Of a stretch of DNA of 50,156 bases, positions 26,284 to 50,035 are shown one piece after another. Origin of the DNA: Pseudoxanthomonas koreensis. GTDB lineage: Bacteria > Pseudomonadota > Gammaproteobacteria > Xanthomonadales > Xanthomonadaceae. A model generated the notes under the pieces. It saw nothing but the letters and a program-made list of their open reading frames with translations, was not told the origin of the DNA and ran no database searches. Position 1 is the stretch's first letter. Each line of letters starts with the position of its first letter. Location: positions 1-50,156 of the forward strand of contig NZ_PDWM01000021.1 of assembly GCF_010093225.1 (NCBI RefSeq), in the 5' to 3' direction. A program made the position numbers and the translations under genes.

Positions 26284-26309
26284 AAAAAGCCCCTGATCGC
26301 TCAGGGGCT
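26284..26309 (-). terminator. Original chromosomal tRNA-Cys terminator, now detached from its tRNA
   Basis: The stem AGCCCCTGA / TCAGGGGCT has a TCGC loop, with a T-tract (TTTTT) on the minus strand at 26284-26288. It lies just beyond the attL copy of the tRNA-Cys 3' half. It must have terminated tRNA-Cys before the island inserted. Confidence 0.8.
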
Positions 26310-26312
26310 TCG

Positions 26313-26362
26313 GTATGGAGGCCTGGGTCGGAATTGAACCGGCGTACGCGGATTTGCAGTCC
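26313..26362. repeat. attL: 50-bp direct repeat, copy of tRNA-Cys 3' half
   Basis: This is identical to 35354-35403. It covers the tRNA-Cys sequence from the anticodon loop to the CCA end plus 3 nt beyond. The sequence diverges right after the shared CAGTCC, so no complete tRNA is encoded here. The distance between copies is 9041 bp. Confidence 0.95.
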
Positions 26363-26492
26363 CGAATGCCGAACTCCCGCCAGTCCCGCCGCTGTTACGT
26401 ATCCGGGACGTTCAGGTAATAATGGCAAGGGTTCAGCGTTGTCATACGCGGACAATGGGGGTACGCTCCGGGTCATAGGAAGTGCACCCTGT

Positions 26493-26514
26493 ACCGGATA
26501 TTTGCCGGATATGA
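26493..26514 (+). promoter_or_regulatory. Candidate integrase arm-type site, left end
   Basis: A 22-bp sequence ACCGGATAnnnGCCGGATATGA is repeated near the right end at 35266-35287 in the same orientation with two mismatches. Each copy is within about 130 bp of an attachment core, as expected for integrase or excisionase binding sites. It is also directly upstream of the likely integrase promoter, so binding could repress integrase. Confidence 0.5.
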
Positions 26515-26515
26515 A

Positions 26516-26545
26516 TTGACCGGCGGATACGCGGACAAGTAATCC
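26516..26545 (+). promoter_or_regulatory. Candidate integrase promoter
   Basis: TTGACC (26516-26521) and TAATCC (26540-26545) are spaced 18 nt apart. Transcription would start about 25 nt before the integrase ATG. Confidence 0.35.
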
Positions 26546-26577
26546 GGGGCCCTTCCTGCCACCCGCAGGAGCCCGCT

Positions 26578-27933
26578 ATGGCCAAGTTCCGTTTCACCGA
26601 CGACACCGTGCGCAAAGCCCAAGGGGCCCCCGCCCGCCCGGTTATCCACTACGACATGCCGGCCGAGTCGGGCAAAGGCGACTACGTGCGCGGCTTCGCC
26701 CTTCAGGTGACCCCGGCCGGCACCCGGACCTTCCTGCTGGTCTACGTGGCCAAGGCCACCGGCCAAGAGCGCCGCATGGTGGTGGGGGCCTACCCCGCCC
26801 TTTCCCTGTCTGCCGCCCGTAAGCGCGCCGAGGAACTGCGGTCCCTCGTCGTGGCTGGCCGCGACCCGTGGCAGGAACAGAAGGAATCCCGGGCGACCGC
26901 TCAGGCCAAGAAGGCCACAGACCAGCACACCTTGGGCGGGCTATTGGATGCCTACTGCGATGCGCTGGACCGGGCCAAGAAGCCGAGCGCGGCCGGCGTG
27001 CGCCGGGAACTGAAAGCCACCATTGCCGATCCGTTCCCCAAGCTCTGGAAGATGCCAGCGGCGGACGTGACGCTGGATGACCTGGTGAAGCCCCTGAACC
27101 GACTGACCCGTGCCGAGAAGTGGCGGCAGGCGGAAAAGACCCGCAGCTACCTGCGCGCGGCTTACACGATGGCGGCGGCCTCCCGAGGGAAGGCCAATGC
27201 GTCGGACCTGTTTACTGCCTACGCGCGCCTCCCTAACGTCGCCCGCGACCTGACCACGGTTGACCGGCCACGCATGGACGACGTTCAGGCCGACGAGGCC
27301 GAGGGAGAAGCCAAGCGGCCTCTCTCCCAGCCTGAGCTGGCGGCCTACTGGCAGCGCATCCGCGAGATGCAGACGCCCGCCGGTGCCCTGCTCCGCTTCC
27401 ACCTGCTGTCCGGGGCCCAGCGTTGCGCCCAGCTGGCAAGACTGACCGAGGCACACATAGACGGCGACGTGGCCGTGATCCGGGATATCAAAGGACGCCG
27501 CCGGCAGGCGCGCCGGCATGAAGTGCCCCTTACTCCAGAAGCTCTCGACGCACTGGACGCCATGCGAGGCGAAGCCGGCCCCCACCTGTTCACCTTGAAC
27601 GGCGGAAAGACCGGCGCGGGGCTGCACCAGGTACGCCGGGTAATGCTCACGGTCGCGCAGGCGATGGTCGAGGCTGGAGAGGTGGCCGAGACGTTCACCC
27701 CGGGCGAAATCCGAATCACGGTCGAGACGCGCCTACAGGCTGCGGGCGTGCCGATGGAAACCCGCGCGCACCTGCAATCGCACGGTCTCGGGGGCGTTCA
27801 GAACAAGCACTACGCCAAACATGACTTCGCGGCAGAGAAGCGCGAGGCGTTGGAGAAGCTGCGCTCCCTGTGCGAGCCGGTGCCCGACAACGTGACTCCT
27901 ATCGCTCCCCGCGCCAAGACTAAGGCGGCTTGA
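26578..27933 (+). CDS. int: Tyrosine-recombinase integrase of the satellite
   Basis: This 451-residue integrase has an N-terminal arm-binding domain (DUF4102-like: LQVTPAGTRTFLLVYVAKATG and MVVGAYPALSLSAARKRAEELR). The core-binding region is about 115-235. The catalytic domain has the first Arg in SGAQRCAQLARL near 279, a second Arg in GEIRITVETRL near 378 (the usual His three residues before it is Gly), then SHGLGGVQNKHYAKHD near 402-416 with His and the nucleophile Tyr. Such integrases insert into tRNA 3' ends, matching tRNA-Cys here. The ATG follows a good site (GCAGGAG). The gene is next to attL, away from the intact tRNA. It is followed with a 2-nt gap by the next gene. Confidence 0.93.
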   Translation: MAKFRFTDDTVRKAQGAPARPVIHYDMPAESGKGDYVRGFALQVTPAGTRTFLLVYVAKATGQERRMVVGAYPALSLSAARKRAEELRSLVVAGRDPWQEQKESRATAQAKKATDQHTLGGLLDAYCDALDRAKKPSAAGVRRELKATIADPFPKLWKMPAADVTLDDLVKPLNRLTRAEKWRQAEKTRSYLRAAYTMAAASRGKANASDLFTAYARLPNVARDLTTVDRPRMDDVQADEAEGEAKRPLSQPELAAYWQRIREMQTPAGALLRFHLLSGAQRCAQLARLTEAHIDGDVAVIRDIKGRRRQARRHEVPLTPEALDALDAMRGEAGPHLFTLNGGKTGAGLHQVRRVMLTVAQAMVEAGEVAETFTPGEIRITVETRLQAAGVPMETRAHLQSHGLGGVQNKHYAKHDFAAEKREALEKLRSLCEPVPDNVTPIAPRAKTKAA

Positions 27934-27935
27934 CG

Positions 27936-28376
27936 ATGACCACTGAGAACAACCGCCCGCAAAGCCTGCTTCGCCGATTCGATGAAACCCGTAAAGGAGA
28001 CGACCGCAAGCTGCTGTTTCGTGCAGTCGCGGAGCGAGTTAAGACCGGCCTACTGACCCATGATGAAGCTGAATTGATTGCCGGGTGGTTTGAGCGGCTT
28101 GCCGACGGCGAAAAGCCGGCAAAGGTTCTTCTTGGCGAAACGAGGGGGCGTAAGGCTGGCAGCAACGGCGTCAAATATCTGAAGGGGCAGGATGTATCCC
28201 TCCCCGATCATGTCGATTTGTGCTGGTCGCTACGGCAATGGATTGACCGGACCGGAGATGAAGATCGGATTTTTAGGGAAGCGGCAGCTAGGTTTGGCTG
28301 CACGAAAGACCATATCGAACGCATCTACGCCGAACATTTGCCCACGCTGGGGCCCGATCCGAGCCTAGAGAAATAA
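27936..28376 (+). CDS. Hypothetical satellite protein
   Basis: This 146-residue protein of unknown function starts 2 nt after the integrase stop. The ATG at 27936 is preferred over a TTG at 27930 that overlaps it in frame. The N-terminal half is charged and helical (LLRRFDETRKGDDRKLLFRAVAERVKTGLL). The C-terminal part REAAARFGCTKDHIERIYAEH looks like a helix-turn-helix. It is followed by a run of seven T without a clear stem, and a ~70-nt gap before the next gene. A regulatory role is possible but not shown. Confidence 0.75.
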   Translation: MTTENNRPQSLLRRFDETRKGDDRKLLFRAVAERVKTGLLTHDEAELIAGWFERLADGEKPAKVLLGETRGRKAGSNGVKYLKGQDVSLPDHVDLCWSLRQWIDRTGDEDRIFREAAARFGCTKDHIERIYAEHLPTLGPDPSLEK

Positions 28377-28446
28377 CGGCTTTTTTTATTCCGAGGACTT
28401 TGCATTTTCATAGGCAGCGCCCCCCAAATGAACCGGAGCGCTGCAC

Positions 28447-28677
28447 ATGCAAACCGATACAAACCCCGTCCGCCAGTGGGATTCCATCGCGGATGACAAC
28501 GCAACTCCTGTGGAGGCCGCCCGCTGGATTCGGCGGTCCCCGGAAACCCTGAAGCGCTGGCGCAGGATGCGGGTCGGCCCGCCATTCTTCACGGTCCAAG
28601 GCCGCGTCTTTTACTCCAAGCGCCAACTGCAGGCTTGGATCGAGCAGCAGCGAGACAACTCGCAGGCGGGTGCGTGA
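28447..28677 (+). CDS. MerR/AlpA-type helix-turn-helix protein, excisionase-like
   Basis: This 76-residue protein contains TPVEAARWIRRSPETLKRWRRM and GPPFFTVQGRVFYSKRQLQAWI, the pattern of a small winged-helix DNA-binding domain used by excisionases and AlpA-type activators. In P4-like satellites such proteins switch on excision and replication. It begins after a 70-nt AT-richer gap, which probably holds the promoter of the rightward operon, and has CCGGAGC as ribosome site. It overlaps the next gene by 1 nt (TGATG). Confidence 0.8.
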   Translation: MQTDTNPVRQWDSIADDNATPVEAARWIRRSPETLKRWRRMRVGPPFFTVQGRVFYSKRQLQAWIEQQRDNSQAGA

Positions 28678-28850
28678 TGAATATCACCATCACCCGCCCG
28701 TCCGTATCGGCCCACCTGCTAGTCCTGGCTGCCGTTGTCGCGGTCCGCGCAGTCCAGACCGCCAACCCGCCGAATCCGGCGTTGATCGACGCTGTCACCC
28801 GGTTGGTGAACTTGGCAACGGAAGCCATGGACCGCGAGGTGACTGCATGA
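28677..28850 (+). CDS. Small hypothetical satellite protein
   Basis: This is a 57-residue protein with a hydrophobic stretch (LLVLAAVVAVRAV, residues about 13-25) that may be one membrane segment, then a helical tail. It overlaps both neighbours (TGATG before, ATGA after), so translation is coupled. The function is unknown. Confidence 0.65.
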   Translation: MNITITRPSVSAHLLVLAAVVAVRAVQTANPPNPALIDAVTRLVNLATEAMDREVTA

Positions 28851-29071
28851 ACACCGCAGCCCACCTGAGCCAACTGCAAGCCCTGCACGCCCCGCGCGCT
28901 GCTGACCTGCTCCGCCCTCTTGTCGATATTGGCGATGGGCTGGCGGCCGCGTTTGCGACGCTACACCGCGACCCGCATCCGGCTGCCGCTGAGCAGCTCG
29001 CCATTCGCCTTGAAGGTGCCCGTCGGCACGTTCTCAAACTCGCAGACGCCCTGCGCAAGGAGGGAGTATGA
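28847..29071 (+). CDS. Small hypothetical satellite protein
   Basis: This is a 74-residue, strongly helical protein (LSQLQALHAPRAADLLRPL and AAEQLAIRLEGARRHVLKLADALRK). It overlaps the previous and next genes by 4 nt each (ATGA). The position in a tight replication operon suggests a phage-type accessory role. No family was recognised. Confidence 0.68.
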   Translation: MNTAAHLSQLQALHAPRAADLLRPLVDIGDGLAAAFATLHRDPHPAAAEQLAIRLEGARRHVLKLADALRKEGV

Positions 29072-29349
29072 CCCTCCAAAACGAGCGCGCCCCGGCCGCT
29101 GGTAACGGTCGAGGCGCAGGTACTGAGCTGGCGAGCGGAGTACCCCTTGATATTACTAAGCATATCCAACGCCTACAACGCCGGCTCAGTGCCTTTGCGC
29201 TGGCCGTAGATGTTGCCTGCGATGACGTAGAAACCGTCCAGCGCCACGCCAACACCTTGGCCGGCGGATTCGGCCTGACTGACGAGGAACGGCACGACCT
29301 GAACAAGATCGCCGCCCGGCTTTTCGACGCTCGGGTGGTGCTCGGATGA
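29068..29349 (+). CDS. Small hypothetical satellite protein
   Basis: This is a 93-residue protein with a polar Gly/Ala-rich N-terminus followed by two amphipathic helices (ITKHIQRLQRRLSAFALAVDVACDDVE and TDEERHDLNKIAARLFDARVVL). It overlaps both neighbours by 4 nt. No family was recognised. Confidence 0.68.
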   Translation: MTLQNERAPAAGNGRGAGTELASGVPLDITKHIQRLQRRLSAFALAVDVACDDVETVQRHANTLAGGFGLTDEERHDLNKIAARLFDARVVLG

Positions 29350-30971
29350 ACATCATGGACGACTCGTGGATGGACCCCAACCTGGCCGAGATTCCGGCTT
29401 CCGTTGAGGTGACTGACTCCGAAGGCAGGCCGCGACGCCAGCCGGACATTCTCTTGGACCTTGGCTGCCGCCATGAACTGTTCCACGCTCCTGATGGGAC
29501 CGCCTATGCCCGCACGGGTGTGGCCGTACACGCGGTCGAGTCACCCGGCTACCGCGAGGTGTTGGCGGGGGAATACTTCGCCCTGACCGAGCGTGGATGC
29601 AATCGCAACGCCCTGAGCGATGCGGTCACTACCCTGACGAGCATCGCCAAGTTCAGGGGGGAGTGCCGCAAGGTCTGGATGCGAGTTGGTGACGCTAATG
29701 ACGGTCGTGACGGTTGTTCCGCCGTTTGCATTGATCCCGGCCGGGATGACTGGCGAATCATTGAGGTCACTGCCGATGGCTGGCACTGGTCGCAATCTCC
29801 CCCGATGTTCAGGCGATCCCGTGCCTTCGGGAAGATGCCCGAGCCCGCAACGCCAGACTTCGGTCGCCTGTGGAAGTACCTGAACGCCCCGGTCGCGCTT
29901 CGGCCTTTGGTCGCCGCGTTCCTGCTCTCTGCAATGCGGCCACGTGGCCCCTACCCCGTACTTGTGCTGGAAGGCGAACAGGGCACCGGCAAGAGCACGT
30001 TCTCCCGCGTGCTGAAGATGATCGCGGACCCGTCTGCGGCGCTGGTGCGCTCCCCGCCGAAAGATACCCGCGACCTACTGGTGGGCGCACTGAACGCATG
30101 GCTCTTGGCCTTGGATAACCTGTCCTTCCTTGGGCCTGACTTGTCCGACTCGCTTTGCCGCATTGCCACTGGAGGAGCCATCTCTGAGCGCGCGCTCTAC
30201 TCCAACACGGACGAGGTGCTGGTCGAGGTGCAACGTCCGGTGGTCCTGAACGGCATCGAGGATCTAGCAGTACGCCCCGACCTGGCCGAACGCTCACTCC
30301 ATATCGAGCTGGACCTGATCCGCGAGCGGCGGACGGAAAGTGAGTTCTGGGAGTCCTTTGCCGCCGACTTGCCGCACATTTTGGGAGGGCTGCTGGCGGG
30401 GATCTCGATGGCAATTCGCGACCATCGGAACGTGAGGATCGAGCGCCTGCCGCGTATGGCTGATTTCGCGGTGTGGTCTGCCGCCGGGATGCCTGCCCTT
30501 GGGTTCACCGCCGACGAGTTCCTTAACGCTTACAGCAACAACTTGGACGAAGGACTGGGCGCTGGCGTGGATGGATCGCCGATGGGGCGCGTGCTGCTCA
30601 GCTTCATCCGGGCCCGTGCGGAGTGGTCGGGTACCGCTGCCGAACTGCTGTCTGCCCTTGCGGGCGTTGCCGAGGAATCTACCGTCCGGTCGCAAGGCTG
30701 GCCCAGGTCTCCCCGTGGCCTGTCTGGTGCCATTCGTCGACTCGCCCCGGCCCTGCGACTTCAAGGGATCGAGATCACCACGGATAGGAACGCCACGGCG
30801 CGCAACCTGCGCTTGTGCAGTACGGGGAAACAACCGTCACAACCGTCACAACCGTCATTTCGCCGGGAATCCAATGACGCAAATGACGCAAATGACGGTC
30901 ATCCCGCCAGTCTGCACAAGGAGCCGTGCCCCCACTGTGCTGGCGAAGGCTGCGCATGGTGCCGCCCATGA
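29346..30971 (+). CDS. P-loop replication ATPase (helicase-like) of the satellite
   Basis: This 541-residue protein has a conserved ATPase core: LVLEGEQGTGKSTFSRVLKMI (Walker A near 211-219), AWLLALDNLSFLG as a Walker B-like strand near 252-262, and PVVLNGIEDLAVRPDLAERSLHIELD with probable sensor and arginine-finger residues. The arrangement resembles superfamily 3 helicase-like replication proteins of prophages and satellites. No primase motif was recognised in the N-terminal ~170 residues. The C-terminus has CPHCAGEGCAWC, a possible zinc knuckle. The DNA contains 9-bp repeats at 29690-29716 and 30831-30902 that may form the origin, so the gene would carry its own start site. Confidence 0.85.
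   Translation: MNIMDDSWMDPNLAEIPASVEVTDSEGRPRRQPDILLDLGCRHELFHAPDGTAYARTGVAVHAVESPGYREVLAGEYFALTERGCNRNALSDAVTTLTSIAKFRGECRKVWMRVGDANDGRDGCSAVCIDPGRDDWRIIEVTADGWHWSQSPPMFRRSRAFGKMPEPATPDFGRLWKYLNAPVALRPLVAAFLLSAMRPRGPYPVLVLEGEQGTGKSTFSRVLKMIADPSAALVRSPPKDTRDLLVGALNAWLLALDNLSFLGPDLSDSLCRIATGGAISERALYSNTDEVLVEVQRPVVLNGIEDLAVRPDLAERSLHIELDLIRERRTESEFWESFAADLPHILGGLLAGISMAIRDHRNVRIERLPRMADFAVWSAAGMPALGFTADEFLNAYSNNLDEGLGAGVDGSPMGRVLLSFIRARAEWSGTAAELLSALAGVAEESTVRSQGWPRSPRGLSGAIRRLAPALRLQGIEITTDRNATARNLRLCSTGKQPSQPSQPSFRRESNDANDANDGHPASLHKEPCPHCAGEGCAWCRP
29690..29716 (-). repeat. 9-bp iteron-like repeats, cluster 1
   Basis: Three consecutive 9-mers (TGACGCTAA, TGACGGTCG, TGACGGTTG) share TGACGsT. 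The last is the exact reverse complement of the 9-mer repeated at 30831-30857. Confidence 0.5.
30831..30902 (+). repeat. 9-bp iteron-like repeats, cluster 2 (candidate satellite origin)
   Basis: CAACCGTCA is present in three perfect tandem copies (30831-30857). After 15 nt come three copies of AATGACG(CA/GT) (30873-30899), the inverted form of the core ACCGTCATT. The cluster is in the low-complexity C-terminal part of the ATPase gene, encoding QPSQPSQPS and NDANDAND. Direct plus inverted short repeats beside a replication protein are typical of replication origins. Confidence 0.55.
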
Positions 30972-31381
30972 CCGGGCTGACCTTGCGGGAGGCTGCCCGG
31001 GCGTTGGGCATCTCGCCCCGGACATTGCGCCGATGGCTCAGTGCCGGCGCTCCGGTTGCACGCCGAGGCCGGAGAGGTACAGGTGGCGCAGCACTGATTG
31101 ACCCCCACGCCGTGCTCGCGTGGCGGGATACCTGTGACGCCGACGCGGCCTTGCAGGCTTTTGCCGGGCGCGTCCCTGAACTGGTCGCCTGCGCGATAGC
31201 CGAGGCTCACCGCATGATCGAAGGCCCGCACAAACGAGCTACCGCCGGCGCACTGGCGGGAACCTGGTTCATCGTCTCGGCCGCGTTGACCGACGCGCTG
31301 AGGCAGCAGGTTCCGACGATCCCCGAGATCGGCAACGTGCCCCGCGAGATCGAGCGACTTAGGAAATGCGCCACCGAATGA
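30968..31381 (+). CDS. Nu1-like winged-helix DNA-binding protein (possible small-terminase homologue)
   Basis: This 137-residue protein has an N-terminal winged helix-turn-helix (LREAARALGISPRTLRRWLSAGAPVARRG) followed by GGAALIDPHAVLAWRD. This matches the layout of lambda Nu1 and related packaging proteins: recognition helix, wing, then a VIKWY-like helix. The rest is helical (TAGALAGTWFIVSAALTDALRQQ). It overlaps the ATPase gene by 4 nt and is 76 nt before the capsid gene. As a Nu1-like protein it could direct packaging of satellite DNA; a transcriptional regulator is the alternative. Confidence 0.7.
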   Translation: MTGLTLREAARALGISPRTLRRWLSAGAPVARRGRRGTGGAALIDPHAVLAWRDTCDADAALQAFAGRVPELVACAIAEAHRMIEGPHKRATAGALAGTWFIVSAALTDALRQQVPTIPEIGNVPREIERLRKCATE

Positions 31382-31457
31382 CCTATTAGAAGCACTTGTG
31401 GCCAACTGGCCATGCCGCGTCGAGACGACGCCGCCCCTCCTCTCAATGGAATAGACC

Positions 31458-32459
31458 ATGGACCACCTGCAGCACGCCGCCCTTTCCCGCGCGCACACCG
31501 CGCTCACCGTCGCCATGAACGGCGCAACCGAATCTTCCATCACCAACAAGGCGGCCGCCTTTGTGGAAGGCGCACTGACCGTGATGCGCGCCGGCCGTGC
31601 TGACGCTGCTGAGGGCCACCTGAGCCGGCACGCGAACCCACTTGTTTCGAAGGCCAGCGCTGAGATCGTCGATGGTCGCTGGGGGGAGGGCGCTGCTGCC
31701 GAGCTTGCCGCCAGCTACATCGAGTCGCACGCCGGCGGCAGTCTGCTGGATCAAATCGCGCGGTATGCGGCAGTTATCCCCGGCAACCTGAATTATGCCT
31801 TGGCCGCCTCTGGATTCACTGCGAACGTAGTCGCTGAAGGCTTCCCGATCGCGGTAAAGAATGCCGGCATCACTGTGGCCGATGCTGACCCGATCAAGGC
31901 TGCTGCGATAACGGTTCTCACGCAGGAGCTCGCGCGCGCTGCCGGCACGCGCATCTTTGAAACCGAACTTACGTCGTCGGTACTGGGTGCGACCAATGCG
32001 GCTGTCATCAGCTCGCTGACCGACACGTCCAGCACCATCGTCGCCGGGACTGGCGACCCGGTGGCTGACCTTCGCACTGCGCTTCAGGCAGCGCCGTCGA
32101 GCGCGGGCTATGTGGTGGCTGCCTCGCCCGGAACGGTTGCCGCATTGGCCCTGAGCGATGCCAACAAGTCTGGCTTGGGTATCTCCGGCGGGGAGCTGGT
32201 GCCCGGCGTGTCCATCGTCCCCGTGACTGGCATCGCTGGCATCACCGTTATTCCGGCAAGCCTGCTTGCACTGCGCGATTACGGCCTTGTCCTGCGTTCG
32301 GCAGGTCACGCTAGTGTGGATTTTAGAGATAGCCCAACTGCGCCCGCTGAGCTGGTGTCCCTCTTCACCACCAACTGCCTGGGCCTTATGGCGACCCGGA
32401 CCTTCCTGCTGACCGCTGCACCGGATGCCAACCTGGTGATCGTGCAGGAATCGCCGTAA
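31458..32459 (+). CDS. HK97-type major capsid protein
   Basis: This 333-residue protein has an N-terminal ~90-residue helical part (FVEGALTVMRAGRADAAEGHL), reminiscent of a delta/scaffold domain. The HK97-fold core follows: SLLDQIARYAAVIPG, ANVVAEGFPIAVKN, an A-domain with VIPASLLALRDYGLVLR, and the C-terminal strand region LVSLFTTNCLGLMATRTFLL, which matches the usual capsid ending. A protease gene of the same phage module overlaps it by 1 nt, which strengthens the call. Such a gene in a 9-kb element implies self-made, probably small, capsids. The ATG at 31458 follows GGAATAG. Confidence 0.78.
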   Translation: MDHLQHAALSRAHTALTVAMNGATESSITNKAAAFVEGALTVMRAGRADAAEGHLSRHANPLVSKASAEIVDGRWGEGAAAELAASYIESHAGGSLLDQIARYAAVIPGNLNYALAASGFTANVVAEGFPIAVKNAGITVADADPIKAAAITVLTQELARAAGTRIFETELTSSVLGATNAAVISSLTDTSSTIVAGTGDPVADLRTALQAAPSSAGYVVAASPGTVAALALSDANKSGLGISGGELVPGVSIVPVTGIAGITVIPASLLALRDYGLVLRSAGHASVDFRDSPTAPAELVSLFTTNCLGLMATRTFLLTAAPDANLVIVQESP

Positions 32460-33025
32460 TGACCACCATCGCACAAGAGGTCGCATCACTGCGGCGACGG
32501 CTGGACGTACTGGAAGGCCGCGCGATGGTGCAGAAGCGGATGGACCTGCAACTGGCGCACGTCCAGAAGTTCATGAGCGACGGCAAGCGGGTCATTACCG
32601 GCCTTGCCACTACGCGGAACGTTGACCGCCACGGCGACGTTGTAGAGCCATCCGGCGGCCGGTGGAAGCTGCCGCTGCCGCTGCTCTGGATGCACTCCCA
32701 CGCCCAGCCCATCGGCTGGGTCCGCGAGGCGACCGCGACCAGTGACGGCATCCGGATCAAAGCCGAGGTTGCCAGTGGCATCGCCAAGGCCGATGAGGTC
32801 TGGCAGCTGGTGGATGCCGGTTTAGTAGACGGGTTCAGCATCGGATTCCTTGGAATCAAGGGCGAACCCATCGGCACTGGCACGCGCTGGAAGTCTTGGG
32901 AATGGCTGGAGTGCAGCGTTGTGACGATTCCAAGCAACCGTGAATCCAAGATCGGCAAGAGCAAAGGCGGCATTCCTCTTGTCGACATGCGCGGCGCAGT
33001 CCGCCTAATCAGGAGCAATCCATGA
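32459..33025 (+). CDS. HK97-family prohead protease
   Basis: This 188-residue protein has the U35-type pattern: ITGLATTRNVDRHGDVVEP, LLWMHSHAQPIGWV with the catalytic His near 78, DGFSIGFLGIKGEP with the Ser near 126, and WLECSVVTIPSNRES. A short coiled coil (EVASLRRRLDVLEGRAMVQKR) precedes the fold. It would cleave capsid and scaffold during maturation. The order capsid then protease is the reverse of most HK97-like modules. It overlaps both neighbours by 1-4 nt. Confidence 0.9.
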   Translation: MTTIAQEVASLRRRLDVLEGRAMVQKRMDLQLAHVQKFMSDGKRVITGLATTRNVDRHGDVVEPSGGRWKLPLPLLWMHSHAQPIGWVREATATSDGIRIKAEVASGIAKADEVWQLVDAGLVDGFSIGFLGIKGEPIGTGTRWKSWEWLECSVVTIPSNRESKIGKSKGGIPLVDMRGAVRLIRSNP

Positions 33026-33306
33026 ACGAACACGACACTGAAGTATTTTTTCTGCCCACCGACCCGGAGCATCGCCATCCAGTGACCGGCGCTCAAATCC
33101 TCTCCGCCGCACGGGCAGCATTCGAACGGGCTTACGTGTCCGCATGTCGGCAGCTAGCGATCCAGCCGGGCGAGCACGCAGAGCGCATGGGTTCGATCAC
33201 GCCGGACGGCACATGGATGAGCGCGACCGTTACCGATGGTCTAGGACGCAAGCGGACCACCGCGTCCCGTGTGGTTTACCCCGGAATGGATGGGGTGCTG
33301 CACTGA
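33022..33306 (+). CDS. Hypothetical satellite protein
   Basis: This 94-residue protein has no recognised family. It has an acidic start (MNEHDTEVFFLPTD), a helix (ILSAARAAFERAYVSACRQLA) and a basic, strand-rich end (TVTDGLGRKRTTASRVVYPG). It overlaps the protease gene by 4 nt, so it is probably part of the head-assembly module. A 96-nt spacer with a run of eight G follows. Confidence 0.7.
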   Translation: MNEHDTEVFFLPTDPEHRHPVTGAQILSAARAAFERAYVSACRQLAIQPGEHAERMGSITPDGTWMSATVTDGLGRKRTTASRVVYPGMDGVLH

Positions 33307-33402
33307 CCGTCGGGGGGGGCCGTTCAGCAATTGGGGCATTCATCCCCGGAACCCGCATCGACCCGTGCACATCTTGAACTGCCCGTTTTCTCTGGAAAGA
33401 CC

Positions 33403-33828
33403 ATGCCCCGACCTGCCGCCAACCTGAACCTCTTTCCGCCCGCCCCCGATGGCATGACCCCGGAACAGGTAGCGCGGTGGGACGCGACCGTGCGCAGCTT
33501 CCCGACCGATTGGTTCAAGGCTTCGGACCTGCCGCTGCTGACGGAGCTGATCCGCGCGCACAGCATGGCAGACGACCTGGCCGAGCGAATCGCATCGACT
33601 ACGGACCTGGCCGAGTTAAAGACCCTGCTGGGGCTGCGAGATATGGAGGCACGCCGGGCTGCATCCATCTCAGTGAAGCTGCGCCTCCCGCCCCAGAGCC
33701 GCTCAGACCGCCACCTAGCCGGCCGTATGGCCCGTGATGCCGGCGGGACGCGCCCGTGGGAGTTCAACGCCTTCGACGAGTTCGACAACGATCCCGACCG
33801 CATCTTCTCTAGGAAAAAAACCCAGTGA
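33403..33828 (+). CDS. P27-family-like phage terminase small subunit
   Basis: The ATG at 33403, after GGAAAGA, gives 141 residues; an upstream TTG at 33331 is less likely. The pattern MTPEQVARWDATVRSFPTDWFKASDLPLLTELIRAHSMADDLAERI and the later LRLPPQSR matches P27-type small terminase subunits. These recognise the packaging site and hand DNA to the large subunit. In satellites the small terminase redirects the helper's large terminase to satellite DNA. No large subunit is encoded here, so a helper's would be needed. It overlaps the next gene by 4 nt (GTGA). Confidence 0.82.
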   Translation: MPRPAANLNLFPPAPDGMTPEQVARWDATVRSFPTDWFKASDLPLLTELIRAHSMADDLAERIASTTDLAELKTLLGLRDMEARRAASISVKLRLPPQSRSDRHLAGRMARDAGGTRPWEFNAFDEFDNDPDRIFSRKKTQ

Positions 33829-34085
33829 CCTACGACCCGCATTTCGTCATGGAAACTCTCCCGGCACTCCCGTCCGAAATGAGCCCCGGCGCTGCTGCCT
33901 TGTGGGCCGCTAACGTCCTAATGATCTCTGGCGTCGAACGCGGATGGCCGATGGATGAAGTGGCCGACCTGCTGTTTACACTGGCGGCGTTCTCGGCCGT
34001 GAATCGGAACACCGACGACGAACTACACGCCAGCCTGCAAGCCAAGCTGGACACAATCCGCAGCGCTCAGGCAGCTAAGAACTAA
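33825..34085 (+). CDS. Hypothetical satellite protein, GTG start
   Basis: This 86-residue acidic helical protein (GAAALWAANVLMISGVERGWPMDEVADLLFTLAAFSAVN) belongs to no recognised family. The GTG start overlaps the terminase stop by 4 nt, with AGGA ahead of it. Between a small terminase and an HNH nuclease it may be a packaging accessory protein. Confidence 0.68.
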   Translation: MTYDPHFVMETLPALPSEMSPGAAALWAANVLMISGVERGWPMDEVADLLFTLAAFSAVNRNTDDELHASLQAKLDTIRSAQAAKN

Positions 34086-34453
34086 TGCCCGACCTCCCGC
34101 CCAGTCACCGGCCAGCGCCTCCCCGGAAGCCCTTTGGTAATTCCAGAACAGCTGCGAACCGGCTAACCGGGCGAGCCCTTCAGCGGCGGAACGCACGCAT
34201 CGCTTTGCGGGACGGCTTCACCTGTCAGGAGTGCGGCAGGGTCACAGAGTCCGGGGAAGTCGATCACCGCGTACCGCTCGCCAAAGGAGGCACCGAGGAT
34301 GACTTAAATTGTCAGTGGCTCTGCGCGGAGCCCTGTCACCGTAACAAGACCATCCGCGAGAACGGCGGCAAGGCGAGGCTAGCCATCGGGCCGGATGGCT
34401 TCCCGGTATCGGCCCGCATCGCGGCCCGGAAGGGTGGGCACTGGGACCGATGA
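34085..34453 (+). CDS. HNH endonuclease, packaging-associated
   Basis: This 122-residue protein has a basic N-terminus and a compact HNH domain: LRDGFTCQECGR, VDHRVPLAKGGTEDDLNCQWLC and CHRNK, with paired cysteines for a structural zinc. HNH proteins of this size are encoded beside terminase genes in cos-type HK97-like phages and are needed for cutting during packaging. It overlaps the previous gene by 1 nt and is the last clear gene of the island operon. Confidence 0.88.
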   Translation: MPDLPPSHRPAPPRKPFGNSRTAANRLTGRALQRRNARIALRDGFTCQECGRVTESGEVDHRVPLAKGGTEDDLNCQWLCAEPCHRNKTIRENGGKARLAIGPDGFPVSARIAARKGGHWDR

Positions 34454-34544
34454 CCGCGGGGGGCGTCCGCCGAACGAGAGCTCGAAGCCTAGGACACCGT
34501 GCGCGCCGCTAACTTCTAGCGTCCACGCATCGTGGATGCCCTTC

Positions 34545-34793
34545 CTATGCCGGCGTGACACTAGGGCAAGGCCTGGCGGTTCGCCTACGGAGCGCAAGCA
34601 GCCGCGCCTCGACCTGCCGCTTCCCGTGCTCGATGGAGCCGCACACGCCTTCCAGCGGCGGCAGCGGAGCCTTCTTGCGGCCCCGGTTAATCGTCACTAG
34701 TCCCGGTCGCACGACCGCCAGGCAGGCGAAGTTGCGATAGAGGCATGACTGCCCATTAGAGTCAGACCAGCGGCAGTTGTCGGGAAGCGCCAT
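34545..34793 (-). CDS. Doubtful small ORF, possible satellite protein
   Basis: This 82-residue frame starts MALPDNCRWSDSNGQSCLYRN and has phage-like codon use for about 65 codons. It is opposite in direction to all other island genes. The ribosome site is weak. No family was recognised. Confidence 0.3.
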   Translation of the reverse strand: MALPDNCRWSDSNGQSCLYRNFACLAVVRPGLVTINRGRKKAPLPPLEGVCGSIEHGKRQVEARLLALRRRTARPCPSVTPA

Positions 34794-34905
34794 GCCGCCA
34801 TGCTACGGCCAGCAGTCTCGCAGGCTGGGACCAGCAGCCCCGGCCCAGCGGGCTGCGGCCATCTCGCGTCGCAGGGAGATTTGGGAAGCGCTGAATCCGG
34901 AATCT

Positions 34906-34932
34906 ACCAGACGCCGGATTCCGGCGTCTGGT
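34906..34932. promoter_or_regulatory. 27-bp palindrome of unknown role
   Basis: Two 13-bp arms (ACCAGACGCCGGA and its complement) flank a single central base. There is no T-tract, so it is not a typical intrinsic terminator. It could be a protein-binding or packaging site. Confidence 0.5.
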
Positions 34933-35245
34933 GGGCCACCGCCTCAGCCCGAGAGCTTTGCATCCGACACTGAGCGATCCACGGGGGAAGACCAGCGCCG
35001 TACCCGTGAGCATCTTCGCCGTGCCGAAGCTCTTGGACCTGATCTACAAGCCGTGGTCGGCACCTCGCTGGATAAGGGCGTTGAACTTGACGCTCTGAAG
35101 GAGACGGCGGCGGAGGTTCGCCAGCAGCCCCGGCATCCCTGCCGAGGCCCGCGCGGTGGATGGCCTGTGGCGCGAGCGTTTGCCAGCGGCTACAGGTTGC
35201 GCGGGCGGAAAGTGGCGCGCTATCGGAGCCCTGTCCGCGTATGTG

Positions 35246-35259
35246 TAGGAAATTTCCTA
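35246..35259. promoter_or_regulatory. 14-bp perfect palindrome TAGGAAATTTCCTA
   Basis: A perfect AT-rich palindrome lies 7 nt before the right arm-type site. It resembles an operator or a host-factor bend site in an attachment region. Confidence 0.35.
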
Positions 35260-35265
35260 GCCGCC

Positions 35266-35287
35266 ACCGGATACGTGCCGGATATGA
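35266..35287 (+). promoter_or_regulatory. Candidate integrase arm-type site, right end
   Basis: This matches 20 of 22 positions of the site at 26493-26514 in the same orientation, 67 bp from the attR core. Confidence 0.5.
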
Positions 35288-35324
35288 GGCCGGCACCGCC
35301 ATTCGCTCCCTACTCCCCAGAAAC

Positions 35325-35352
35325 GAAAAACCCCTAGAAAACTAGGGGCTTT
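35325..35352 (-). terminator. Island-borne replacement terminator for tRNA-Cys
   Basis: The stem CCCCTAG / CTAGGGG has an A-rich loop, with TTTTT on the minus strand and CTTTT on the plus strand, so it could work in both directions. It sits where the original chromosomal terminator (26284-26309) would have been before insertion. Confidence 0.85.
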
Positions 35353-35353
35353 T

Positions 35354-35403
35354 GTATGGAGGCCTGGGTCGGAATTGAACCGGCGTACGCGGATTTGCAG
35401 TCC
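35354..35403. repeat. attR: 50-bp direct repeat within intact tRNA-Cys
   Basis: This is identical to 26313-26362. It begins 3 nt outside the tRNA 3' end and runs through the anticodon loop. Confidence 0.95.
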
Positions 35404-35430
35404 GCTGCATGACCACTCTGCCACCAGGCC
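35357..35430 (-). tRNA. tRNA-Cys (GCA), integration target
   Basis: The minus strand folds with acceptor GGCCTGG/CCAGGCC, anticodon loop CTGCAAA (GCA) and T arm GCCGGTTCAATTCCGAC; CCA is encoded. Its 3' half was supplied or restored by the island, so the gene stays functional. Confidence 0.96.
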
Positions 35431-48732: not shown

Positions 48733-49128
48733 ATGAACCGTGCAATCGCCAACGAAATAACTAGGCTCGGCGGCGATCCGACAGATGAGGTATGGGTCTG
48801 GCTTGTAACTCGCGGACCCCATGGGCCTTCCTTCACTTGGGGACAAACTCGCAATAAGCCCCCAGGATACGTTTCGGCATCGCACCTCCAGGACGTTGTT
48901 GGAGAACTGGCGCTTTCCATTCCGGCGTTTCAGGAGCGCGCCCTGCGCGTCGTAAATTTGGCTATGGATTCGGAGCATTCCGAGTTGACACGGCGTGCTA
49001 TCCAAGTTGCGGCGGTAATCGGCGGCAGCAATGAGTTGCGGCGTGTCAAACAACTTGAGTCCAGCCAAGACCCGGTCGTAGCCTCTGATGCTCGAGCCTC
49101 TGCGTTTTACCTCAAGGGTCGCTACTAG
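48733..49128 (+). CDS. Cassette 1 protein, HEAT-like, unknown function
   Basis: This 131-residue protein fills the first cassette (48709-49184). The first half is unlike families I know (GGDPTDEVWVWLVTRGPHGPSF). The second half has two short helical repeats (ALRVVNLAMDSEHSELTRRAIQVAAVIGG and NELRRVKQLESSQDPVVASDARASAFYL) resembling HEAT repeats. Codon use is much less GC-rich than in intI or comEC, as usual for cassettes. A 143-codon frame on the other strand is judged a shadow. Confidence 0.72.
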   Translation: MNRAIANEITRLGGDPTDEVWVWLVTRGPHGPSFTWGQTRNKPPGYVSASHLQDVVGELALSIPAFQERALRVVNLAMDSEHSELTRRAIQVAAVIGGSNELRRVKQLESSQDPVVASDARASAFYLKGRY

Positions 49129-49130
49129 CG

Positions 49131-49190
49131 GCCTAACCATTCATTCAAGCCGAACCCGCTTCGCGGGTCGGCTTAACTCAAGCGTTAGGC
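49131..49190 (+). other. attC site of cassette 1
   Basis: This 60-bp site runs from GCCTAAC (49131-49137) to GTTAGGC (49184-49190). Between them, inner complementary blocks (AAGCCGA with TCGGCTT, and ACCCGC with GCGGGT around a TTC centre) let the single strand fold into the hairpin used by IntI. Confidence 0.92.
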
Positions 49191-49193
49191 CTC

Positions 49194-49661
49194 ATGAACA
49201 GCATTCTCCTCGCCGTTGCTCTTCTTTCTGGCTCAGCCACCGACTTTGGTAGTGCCGTTACAGACGAGGAGCTTAGTCTCGGCGGTGTGACGCTTGACGA
49301 TTCGGAGAGCGAAGTCTTGGCCGTGCTTGGCCAACCAGTACGGCAATCTGATACGGGCGAGAGCATTGCGTTTGAGTACCCTGGACTGACCGTGATGATC
49401 GGTTGGCTAGAGCAGGCTGGTCCAGGCAAGTCGCGCCGCGTGCTCCAGCTCAACGCCACGGGGCAGAATGCTTGTACTCCTGCCGGGATCTGTCCGGGCG
49501 CTCCACTGTCAAAGGCCTTGGCGGCCTATGGTCAGCCCATCAAGTCAGAGCGAGAGTCTGGTAGCTTCTGGGAGTACTACAGCAATCAATCTTCTTGCTG
49601 GCTTCAGCTTGGCATATCTGGCGGCACAATTAGCTCAATCAGTGCAGTGTGCCAGCCATGA
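49194..49661 (+). CDS. Cassette 2 protein, secreted, unknown function
   Basis: This 155-residue protein has a probable short signal peptide (MNSILLAVALLSGSATDFGSA). Two related segments (GGVTLDDSESEVLAVLGQPV and CPGAPLSKALAAYGQPI) resemble the GMTKxxVxxxLGxP repeat of BamE/SmpA-like domains. Four cysteines could pair outside the cytoplasm. The ATG is 3 nt after the attC core; its TTAGG may act as ribosome site. The stop precedes the next attC by 1 nt. Confidence 0.75.
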   Translation: MNSILLAVALLSGSATDFGSAVTDEELSLGGVTLDDSESEVLAVLGQPVRQSDTGESIAFEYPGLTVMIGWLEQAGPGKSRRVLQLNATGQNACTPAGICPGAPLSKALAAYGQPIKSERESGSFWEYYSNQSSCWLQLGISGGTISSISAVCQP

Positions 49662-49662
49662 G

Positions 49663-49722
49663 GCCTAACAATTCATTCAAGCCGACGCCGCTCCGCGGCG
49701 CGGCTTAACTCAGGCGTTAGGC
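49663..49722 (+). other. attC site of cassette 2
   Basis: This 60-bp site runs from GCCTAAC (49663-49669) to GTTAGGC (49716-49722). It is close to attC 1 outside the hairpin tip, which differs (GACGCCGCTCCGCGGCGC). Equal length and near identity suggest both cassettes come from the same integron pool. Confidence 0.92.
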
Positions 49723-49741
49723 CTCTTAGGGGAAGGGTGTC

Positions 49742-50035
49742 GTGGTCACAGACATTGACAAAGACTTCTACAATCGTGCAGACGCCGTCATACACCTTGC
49801 TAATGATCAGCTCGCTGATATTTCTCGTGGCAAAGTTAGCGCTTCTTGCATGTATGCCACTGCTCGCTTTAATGCGTGGGTTAGTGCTTGTGGCCACGCT
49901 TCAGCCGAGGACATGGCCGCTGCAAAGGAGGAGACCGTTAACTACTTCACCAAGCAGTACCGCGCCATGCTTGAGGAGAACATGGATGACTACATTGGAA
50001 AGTTCAGTGAGTACATGCAGCCACCAGAGGCCTAA
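49742..50035 (+). CDS. Cassette 3 protein, DUF3144-like
   Basis: This 97-residue cytoplasmic protein starts with GTG after a strong AGGGGAAGG. DFYNRADAVIHLANDQL, KVSASCMYATARFNAWVSACG and ETVNYFTKQYRAMLEENMDDYI match the small DUF3144 family, whose function is unknown. The stop codon TAA is inside the first core (GCCTAAC) of its own attC site. Confidence 0.8.
   Translation: MVTDIDKDFYNRADAVIHLANDQLADISRGKVSASCMYATARFNAWVSACGHASAEDMAAAKEETVNYFTKQYRAMLEENMDDYIGKFSEYMQPPEA

Follow-up and report, generated by a model that had tools for sequence, protein, structure and literature searches.

We analyzed a 50,156-bp stretch of Pseudoxanthomonas koreensis DNA (contig NZ_PDWM01000021.1, hereafter the window), in which a compact, phage-satellite-like island of 9 kb is bounded by a 60-bp repeat on either side, the right copy reaching into a tRNA-Cys gene (Table 1). 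From the integrase gene (int) to the HNH gene, all genes are carried on the plus strand, in the order integrase, 148-aa protein, excisionase-like helix-turn-helix (HTH) protein, small unknowns, replication gene (rep), Nu1-like HTH protein and capsid protein, with the S78 protease, the 94-aa protein, a P27-like small terminase (TerS), the 86-aa protein and the HNH endonuclease following 3′ of the capsid gene. Several frames overlap by 1–4 bases and no named gene is broken, in line with the original prediction, made from the letters and their open reading frames (ORFs), of a minimal satellite with mostly overlapping, intact frames. The gene set named there (integrase, replication ATPase, capsid, protease, P27-like TerS and HNH) was recovered as well, with weak profiles for the ATPase, the TerS and the capsid protein when searched alone; the excisionase-like and Nu1-like HTH proteins, the iteron arrays and the repeats inside the attachment (att) sites are features beyond it.

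Table 1 Features of the island and its ends (positions in the window)
Feature	Position	Strand	Profile support or remark
attL, left copy of 60-bp repeat	26303..26362		perfect 50-bp core 26313-26362
Candidate integrase arm-type site, left	26493..26514	+	matched by 35266-35287
Tyrosine integrase (int), 451 aa	26578..27933	+	phrog_1 1e-25; Arm-DNA-bind_3 1.6e-16
148-aa protein, no assigned function	27930..28376	+	Pfam: none over cut-off; PHROGs: none
AlpA/excisionase-like HTH, 76 aa	28447..28677	+	HTH_17 1.8e-6; phrog_66 2.7e-6
Replication ATPase/helicase (rep), 541 aa	29346..30971	+	weak AAA/primase profiles
Candidate replication origin, iteron arrays	30830..30897		inside 3′ end of rep
Nu1-like (small-terminase-like) HTH	30968..31381	+	phrog_57 1.1e-9, N-terminal part only; start codon assumed
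HK97-fold major capsid protein (by model), 333 aa	31458..32459	+	
Prohead protease, peptidase S78, 188 aa	32459..33025	+	Peptidase_S78 2.1e-8 (over cut-off); phrog_617 2.9e-32
94-aa protein, no assigned function	33022..33306	+	Pfam/PHROGs: none over cut-off
P27-like small terminase	33331..33828	+	phrog_12559 5.4e-6 only; Pfam no match
86-aa protein, no assigned function	33825..34085	+	Pfam: none
HNH endonuclease, 122 aa	34085..34453	+	PF01844 6.2e-9; phrog_589 4e-23
~890 bp without convincing genes	34454..35343		candidate place for packaging site
Candidate integrase arm-type site, right	35266..35287	+	
attR, right copy of 60-bp repeat	35344..35403		overlaps 3′ part of tRNA-Cys
tRNA-Cys	35357-35430	-	

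The two end repeats agree at 58 of 60 positions (97%), and the outer limits of the perfect 50-bp repeat within them, 26313 and 35403, are exactly the borders initially assigned to the element. Just inside both ends lie 22-bp repeats, each containing CCGGATA twice, 11 bp apart, an arrangement expected for arm-type sites of the integrase, a role that these sequences possibly fulfill. Matches covering most of the island's right flank were obtained in 16 of 17 genus genomes, its own included, the remaining one (G006) yielding short matches only, and the tRNA-Cys is present in 13 of the 15 same-genus loci compared, in one case at 82%. Two same-genus genomes display an empty site: in one (L097), the att core directly adjoins the final 22 bases of the left flank, and in the other (L098) a stretch of about 300 bp accommodates the left-flank gene, the tRNA-Cys and an inverted tRNA-Leu. 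The capsid gene is absent from all 16 other same-genus genomes listed in the search of relatives. An integrase with a specific attachment site, one of the hallmarks of Gram-negative phage-inducible chromosomal islands (PICIs), is hence present. At DNA level, the island found no match among phages, and matches to plasmids were limited to a single Xanthomonas sacchari record, where two short pieces covered ~1% of the query.

A second hallmark, a rightward, one-directional gene order with an AlpA-type regulator after int, was likewise found, the regulator matching HTH_17 and not the Phage_AlpA model. Neither lysis genes nor a complete virion module were detected among the island genes scanned, which is a further characteristic of Gram-negative PICIs. 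Rep yielded weak profile matches (AAA_16 0.016, phrog_2249 0.0029) and shares 29.7% identity over 84% with a phage helicase/primase. The iterons within its gene form two 9-bp arrays in opposite orientation (30830-30857 and 30873-30897), with six TGACG/CGTCA words within 150 bp; when 3-base blocks were shuffled 200 times, the count was four at most (mean 2.7). By analogy with PICI origins (PMC6092414), they are a candidate origin, whereas the 15-bp spacer between them is not AT-rich, unlike the stretch that two iteron sets flank in PICI origins. Of the genes 3′ of the capsid gene, the protease searched alone was found in 3 of 149 genomes of relatives, namely its own and two with remote copies at 29–30% identity. 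The P27-like TerS probably starts at the ATG at 33403, from which the gene call also runs (141 aa), and found no match among phages; the HNH gene combines atypical codon use (negative coding score) with clear profile support.

To identify the capsid protein, profiles and structure models were combined. On its own, the window capsid yielded a marginal profile match (phrog_617, 0.051), no relative at E 1e-5 among 50,697 named phage records and none among viral contigs. Four of its relatives match the head-protein family phrog_617 (2e-4, 6.2e-5, 7.9e-31 and 1.1e-31), and that of Halomonas cupida (L083) matches another head-protein family, phrog_10 (3.8e-4). A profile built from six close members, including the window copy, hit one solved major capsid protein (4.7e-5), which belongs to phage Bxb1 according to the fold search. 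An AlphaFold2 model based on a 48-row alignment reached a pLDDT of 86.3 and a pTM of 0.81, compared with a pLDDT of 48.8 and no fold match at E 0.001 for an earlier 12-row model. Searching the PDB with the 48-row model, Foldseek returned 201 matches with E-values of 0.001 or below, phage Bxb1 first, with HK97 and SaPI1 capsids and encapsulins among them; judged by title, the best 50 of the 201 comprise capsids or heads of phages together with encapsulin-type shells. TM-scores over the query range from 0.28 to 0.41 among these 50, modest values that establish the fold and not close kinship. The modeled product of 31458..32459 is thus a capsid protein, as had been proposed, with an HK97 fold, and its N-terminal helical region (residues 3–69) may be a delta domain.

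The proposed lack of portal, large terminase and tail genes also held, as none were found in Pfam and PHROGs scans of the island genes or by ORF size. Only four ORFs reach 280 aa, namely int (451), rep (541), capsid (333) and a 348-aa ORF antisense to the capsid gene with a slightly negative coding score, leaving int, rep and capsid as the only products long enough for a portal or large terminase. The 94-aa and 86-aa proteins at 33022-33306 and 33825-34085, suggested earlier as candidates for a hidden portal, were dismissed as too short, by size and without folding.

The capsid served to delineate a family of twelve elements, comprising the window island, Xanthomonas arboricola (L008, identical to L079), Pseudoxanthomonas wuyuanensis (L014, L082), Luteimonas wenzhouensis (L015, L084), L016, L017, L018, L019, Bordetella hinzii (L080), X. 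hortorum (L081), H. cupida (L083) and Bosea (L087); L085, L086, L088, L089, L020 and other IMG/VR loci were left out of this count. IMG/VR contains at least 61 capsid loci, two at 43% and 49% identity and the rest at 30% or less among the matches listed, and genome contigs contain 11, three of which lie on the same contigs as G032, G322 and G408. A direct repeat was identified at both ends in 7 of the 11 elements tested, that is, all but L019: the window island, L079, L081, L014, L015 (15 bp only), L016 and L083. These seven units measure 8.4–11.9 kb and occupy six tRNA types (Cys, Val, Thr, Ala, Ser, Pro). No end repeat was found in L017, L018, L080 and L087, with L018 and L080 cut by contig ends. 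Large terminase (phrog_2) gave no match inside any of the 12 element stretches examined, every hit lying outside by coordinates, compared with matches in 11 of 14 control genomes; for L087, whose ends are undefined, one hit (C16:25017) could lie on the same contig, ~4 kb beyond the stretch examined. Portal genes, searched as PF04860 only (4 of 14 control genomes matched), were present in four elements, intact in L008, L014 and L019 and broken in L081, where a minus-strand gene, transposase-like by eye, splits the X. hortorum portal gene (L081:11312-13938).

The remaining gene content varies. The protease was detected via Pfam in 4 of 12 elements (window, L015, L018, L080), with L019, L081 and L087 compared by BLASTP only; a 161-aa gene beside the L083 capsid was rejected as a protease for lack of a Pfam match and left out of this count. 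The L015 protease ORF (L015:10874-11989) displays a long C-terminal extension with weak matches to phrog_1289, a portal C-terminus (2.8e-4), and to CBM_5_12 (0.0035, below cut-off). Three elements carry a tape measure gene, L018 and L087 by profile and L081 by similarity to L018, and tape-measure-like genes lie 3′ of the capsid at L018:6928-9009, L087:12454-15708 and L081:14558-16771 as well as in the IMG/VR record L020 with its related capsid (L020:5771-7387). Judging from these genes, some satellites may set tail length too, on which a literature search brought up nothing by title or abstract. A Nu1-like gene precedes the capsid gene in 8 of 12 elements (window, L008, L014, L015, L018, L019, L080, L081) and was not seen in L016, L017, L083 and L087. 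Replication genes differ, with an O-like protein and DnaC-like loader in L014, a primase/polymerase type in L015 and another helicase in L017, and no BLASTP match at 1e-3 was obtained for the window rep, TerS, HNH, 94-aa and 86-aa proteins in the seven relatives compared. The expectation of a conserved unit was accordingly borne out in part: the capsid recurs in bounded islands, preceded by the Nu1-like gene in 7 of the 11 others, and the whole gene set of the window was found in no relative. What is conserved is therefore the capsid with, mostly, a Nu1-like partner in an int-bearing island.

The capsid gene is under purifying selection in all five pairs of relatives analyzed. Ratios of nonsynonymous to synonymous changes (dN/dS, NG86) were 0.105–0.133 in three Xanthomonas-type pairs (L008, L019, L081), 0.072 for L018/L080 and 0.129 for L016/L017; read in two other frames, L008/L081 gave dN above dS both times. 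In a 48-row tree, with rows from searches seeded with this capsid family and 12 near-copies dropped, a group of nine satellite capsids is separated from the remaining 39 rows with 100/100 support, and the full dozen together with L020 form a set at 97/95. Satellites overall require two changes on the tree and form a single group in 0% of 200 bootstrap trees; L083 sits on a long branch, leaving its own placement unsure.

Satellites of this type had been considered undescribed in the original prediction, a claim that for the most part does not hold, as capsid-bearing satellites have been published (PMC10111431, PMC6092414, PMC8569155, PMC10654092, PMC3986857). Of 29 reference Gram-negative PICIs, 21 are reported to carry a capsid gene, which transfer does not require (PMC10111431); the excerpts on Gram-negative PICIs do not themselves say that these islands lack portal and large terminase. 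With EcCICFT073 and PmCI172, the window island shares int, an alpA-type regulator, a replication gene with iterons, rightward transcription and a late capsid gene (PMC6092414, PMC10111431), and it differs from both in its capsid group, satellite-only in the tree, the protease behind the capsid, two TerS-like proteins, the HNH and its host family, taken to be Lysobacteraceae as in X. arboricola. SaPIbov5 likewise uses a satellite capsid homologue with assembly parts of the helper: Ccm, a capsid homologue in a PICI, fills the pentamers of small procapsids that also contain helper capsid protein. In contrast to the window island, SaPIbov5 is Gram-positive, Ccm mixes with the helper capsid protein and no protease has been identified (PMC8569155). 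Mycobacterial candidate PICIs, tied to phiRv1 and phiRv2, are defined by an integrase and a major capsid protein (PMC10654092); phiRv1 and phiRv2 measure 9.3 kb and 10.8 kb, and the five assigned genes of phiBN42_1 encode integrase, excisionase, primase, prohead protease and capsid (PMC3986857). These elements resemble the window island in size and gene list, a likeness by description only, and reside in a different phylum. Capsid-forming PICIs (cf-PICIs) additionally possess genes for a portal, a large terminase and connectors (PMC10690885). The window island has capsid, protease, small terminase (weak) and HNH in common with them, but their portal, large terminase and connectors were not found in it, and cf-PICI identity was rejected for want of portal and large terminase. 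The same applies to PICMI elements, described as integrating next to fis and lacking capsid-remodelling genes (PMC10803314), given the capsid gene and tRNA-Cys site observed here. No publication on this satellite capsid group, or on Lysobacteraceae satellites with that capsid, was found in the open-licence literature. While the general kind is already known, this branch, which has a shell-protein line of its own, seems to be new.

Taken as a whole, the sequence data suggest that the island is probably an intact Gram-negative-type PICI carrying a capsid module. This reading builds on the bounded ends and empty sites, the one-strand PICI-like order, the iterons, the HK97 fold, the lack of phrog_2 matches in the 12 element stretches examined, capsid dN/dS of 0.07–0.13, the nine-capsid group and the published precedents for satellite capsids. 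Integration, gene content, capsid fold and selection on the capsids of relatives are sequence-based steps of the following scheme, the others being proposed. A helper phage would induce the island, Int and the AlpA-like protein would excise it, and Rep would copy it from the iteron arrays. TerS-type proteins and the HNH would then direct the large terminase of the helper to island DNA, while the island capsid protein, matured by its own protease, would form small heads on the helper portal, alone or by co-assembly with helper capsid; these heads would finally take helper tails. That the island builds its own shell is possible, with the caveat that Ccm mixes with helper capsid protein and that loss of the EcCICFT073 capsid gene left transfer unaffected.

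Several observations weigh against this reading. The dN/dS values come from relatives and not from the window copy, and the capsid is rare (2 of 149 genomes in the search of relatives and 6 of 398 in a sample of the order, its own included in each). Beyond the capsid, relatives do not have the gene set in common and differ in their replication genes, and TerS calls are weak or cover an N-terminal HTH only. In L080, a 222-aa product matches a short family that bears the name large terminase (0.0012); this product is too small for the whole enzyme. No Phage_portal (PF04860) match was obtained in the own genome, and none of the 14 window proteins compared by tblastn matched its three phrog_2 loci. 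Finally, deletion of the capsid gene c1499 of EcCICFT073 left transfer unaffected and did not restore phage growth (PMC6092414), and such capsid genes need therefore not serve packaging.

The latter result leads to an alternative that we consider unlikely, namely that capsid and protease derive from late genes taken over from a helper, are dispensable for transfer and act mainly against that helper or as spare parts. PICIs have been proposed to capture late genes and then lose many (PMC10111431), and the late-gene set indeed differs among relatives; yet the family was recovered through a single gene, that of the capsid, which is under purifying selection in every pair of relatives analyzed, and nine capsids group together instead of being scattered among the other tree rows. 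Chimeric-capsid interference as described for Ccm, in which the island protein would enter and shrink the helper shell and form none of its own, is given somewhat less than an even chance. A Ccm-like protein would need no portal of its own. However, the window capsid comes with its own protease, whereas none has been identified in SaPIbov5, and co-assembly partners are not evident, given the lack of relatives among named phage records; this is qualified by remote capsid relatives of at most 30% identity in IMG/VR contigs. Few phage genes and no lysis or tail genes were found, as might be expected for one end of a decayed prophage, which is nevertheless highly improbable and was rejected here: both att ends with matching inner repeats, the empty site in two same-genus genomes, the lack of any broken named frame and the same capsid family in islands at other tRNA genes all contradict it.

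Beyond the intact-PICI reading, we tentatively put forward a broader scenario, to be regarded as rather doubtful at present. A satellite lineage may have kept a dedicated shell protein, satellite-only in the tree and usually accompanied by a Nu1-like packaging protein, with satellite-specific heads docking on helper portal and motor, and with protease, portal and tape-measure genes swapped as helpers change, a stable stage between PICIs and cf-PICIs. If the satellite capsid assembles around helper portal and motor, shell and portal vertex can come from different genomes, which would bear on the origin of cf-PICIs from PICIs. The family also provides sequence-defined elements in several hosts for asking whether satellite capsid genes are needed, a live question in view of the c1499 deletion.

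With respect to helpers, four genomes or records harboring these satellites (G322, G440, G442, G443) contain a large terminase of ~600 aa with a nearby Phage_portal match outside the satellite; these loci are possible helper prophages. In the own genome, the phrog_2 locus on C7 appears podovirus-like by eye, and a phrog_2 match on C1 (1.1e-6) was dropped as an apparent helicase/recombination gene by eye. A second satellite-like element lies on contig C4 of the same genome (~30.3–41.6 kb, L090 10335 to L093 1736), bounded by 48-bp repeats, one in a tRNA-Glu. It carries genes for rep, a scaffold, a major head protein (phrog_247 9.4e-91), a TerS and a large terminase as well as a gene that resembles an integrase by eye. 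It displays the reverse gap, a motor without a portal, PF04860 being unmatched throughout the genome. Within the window, G+C content drops to 0.558 at 49001-50000, from values of at least 0.69 in the five kilobases before it.

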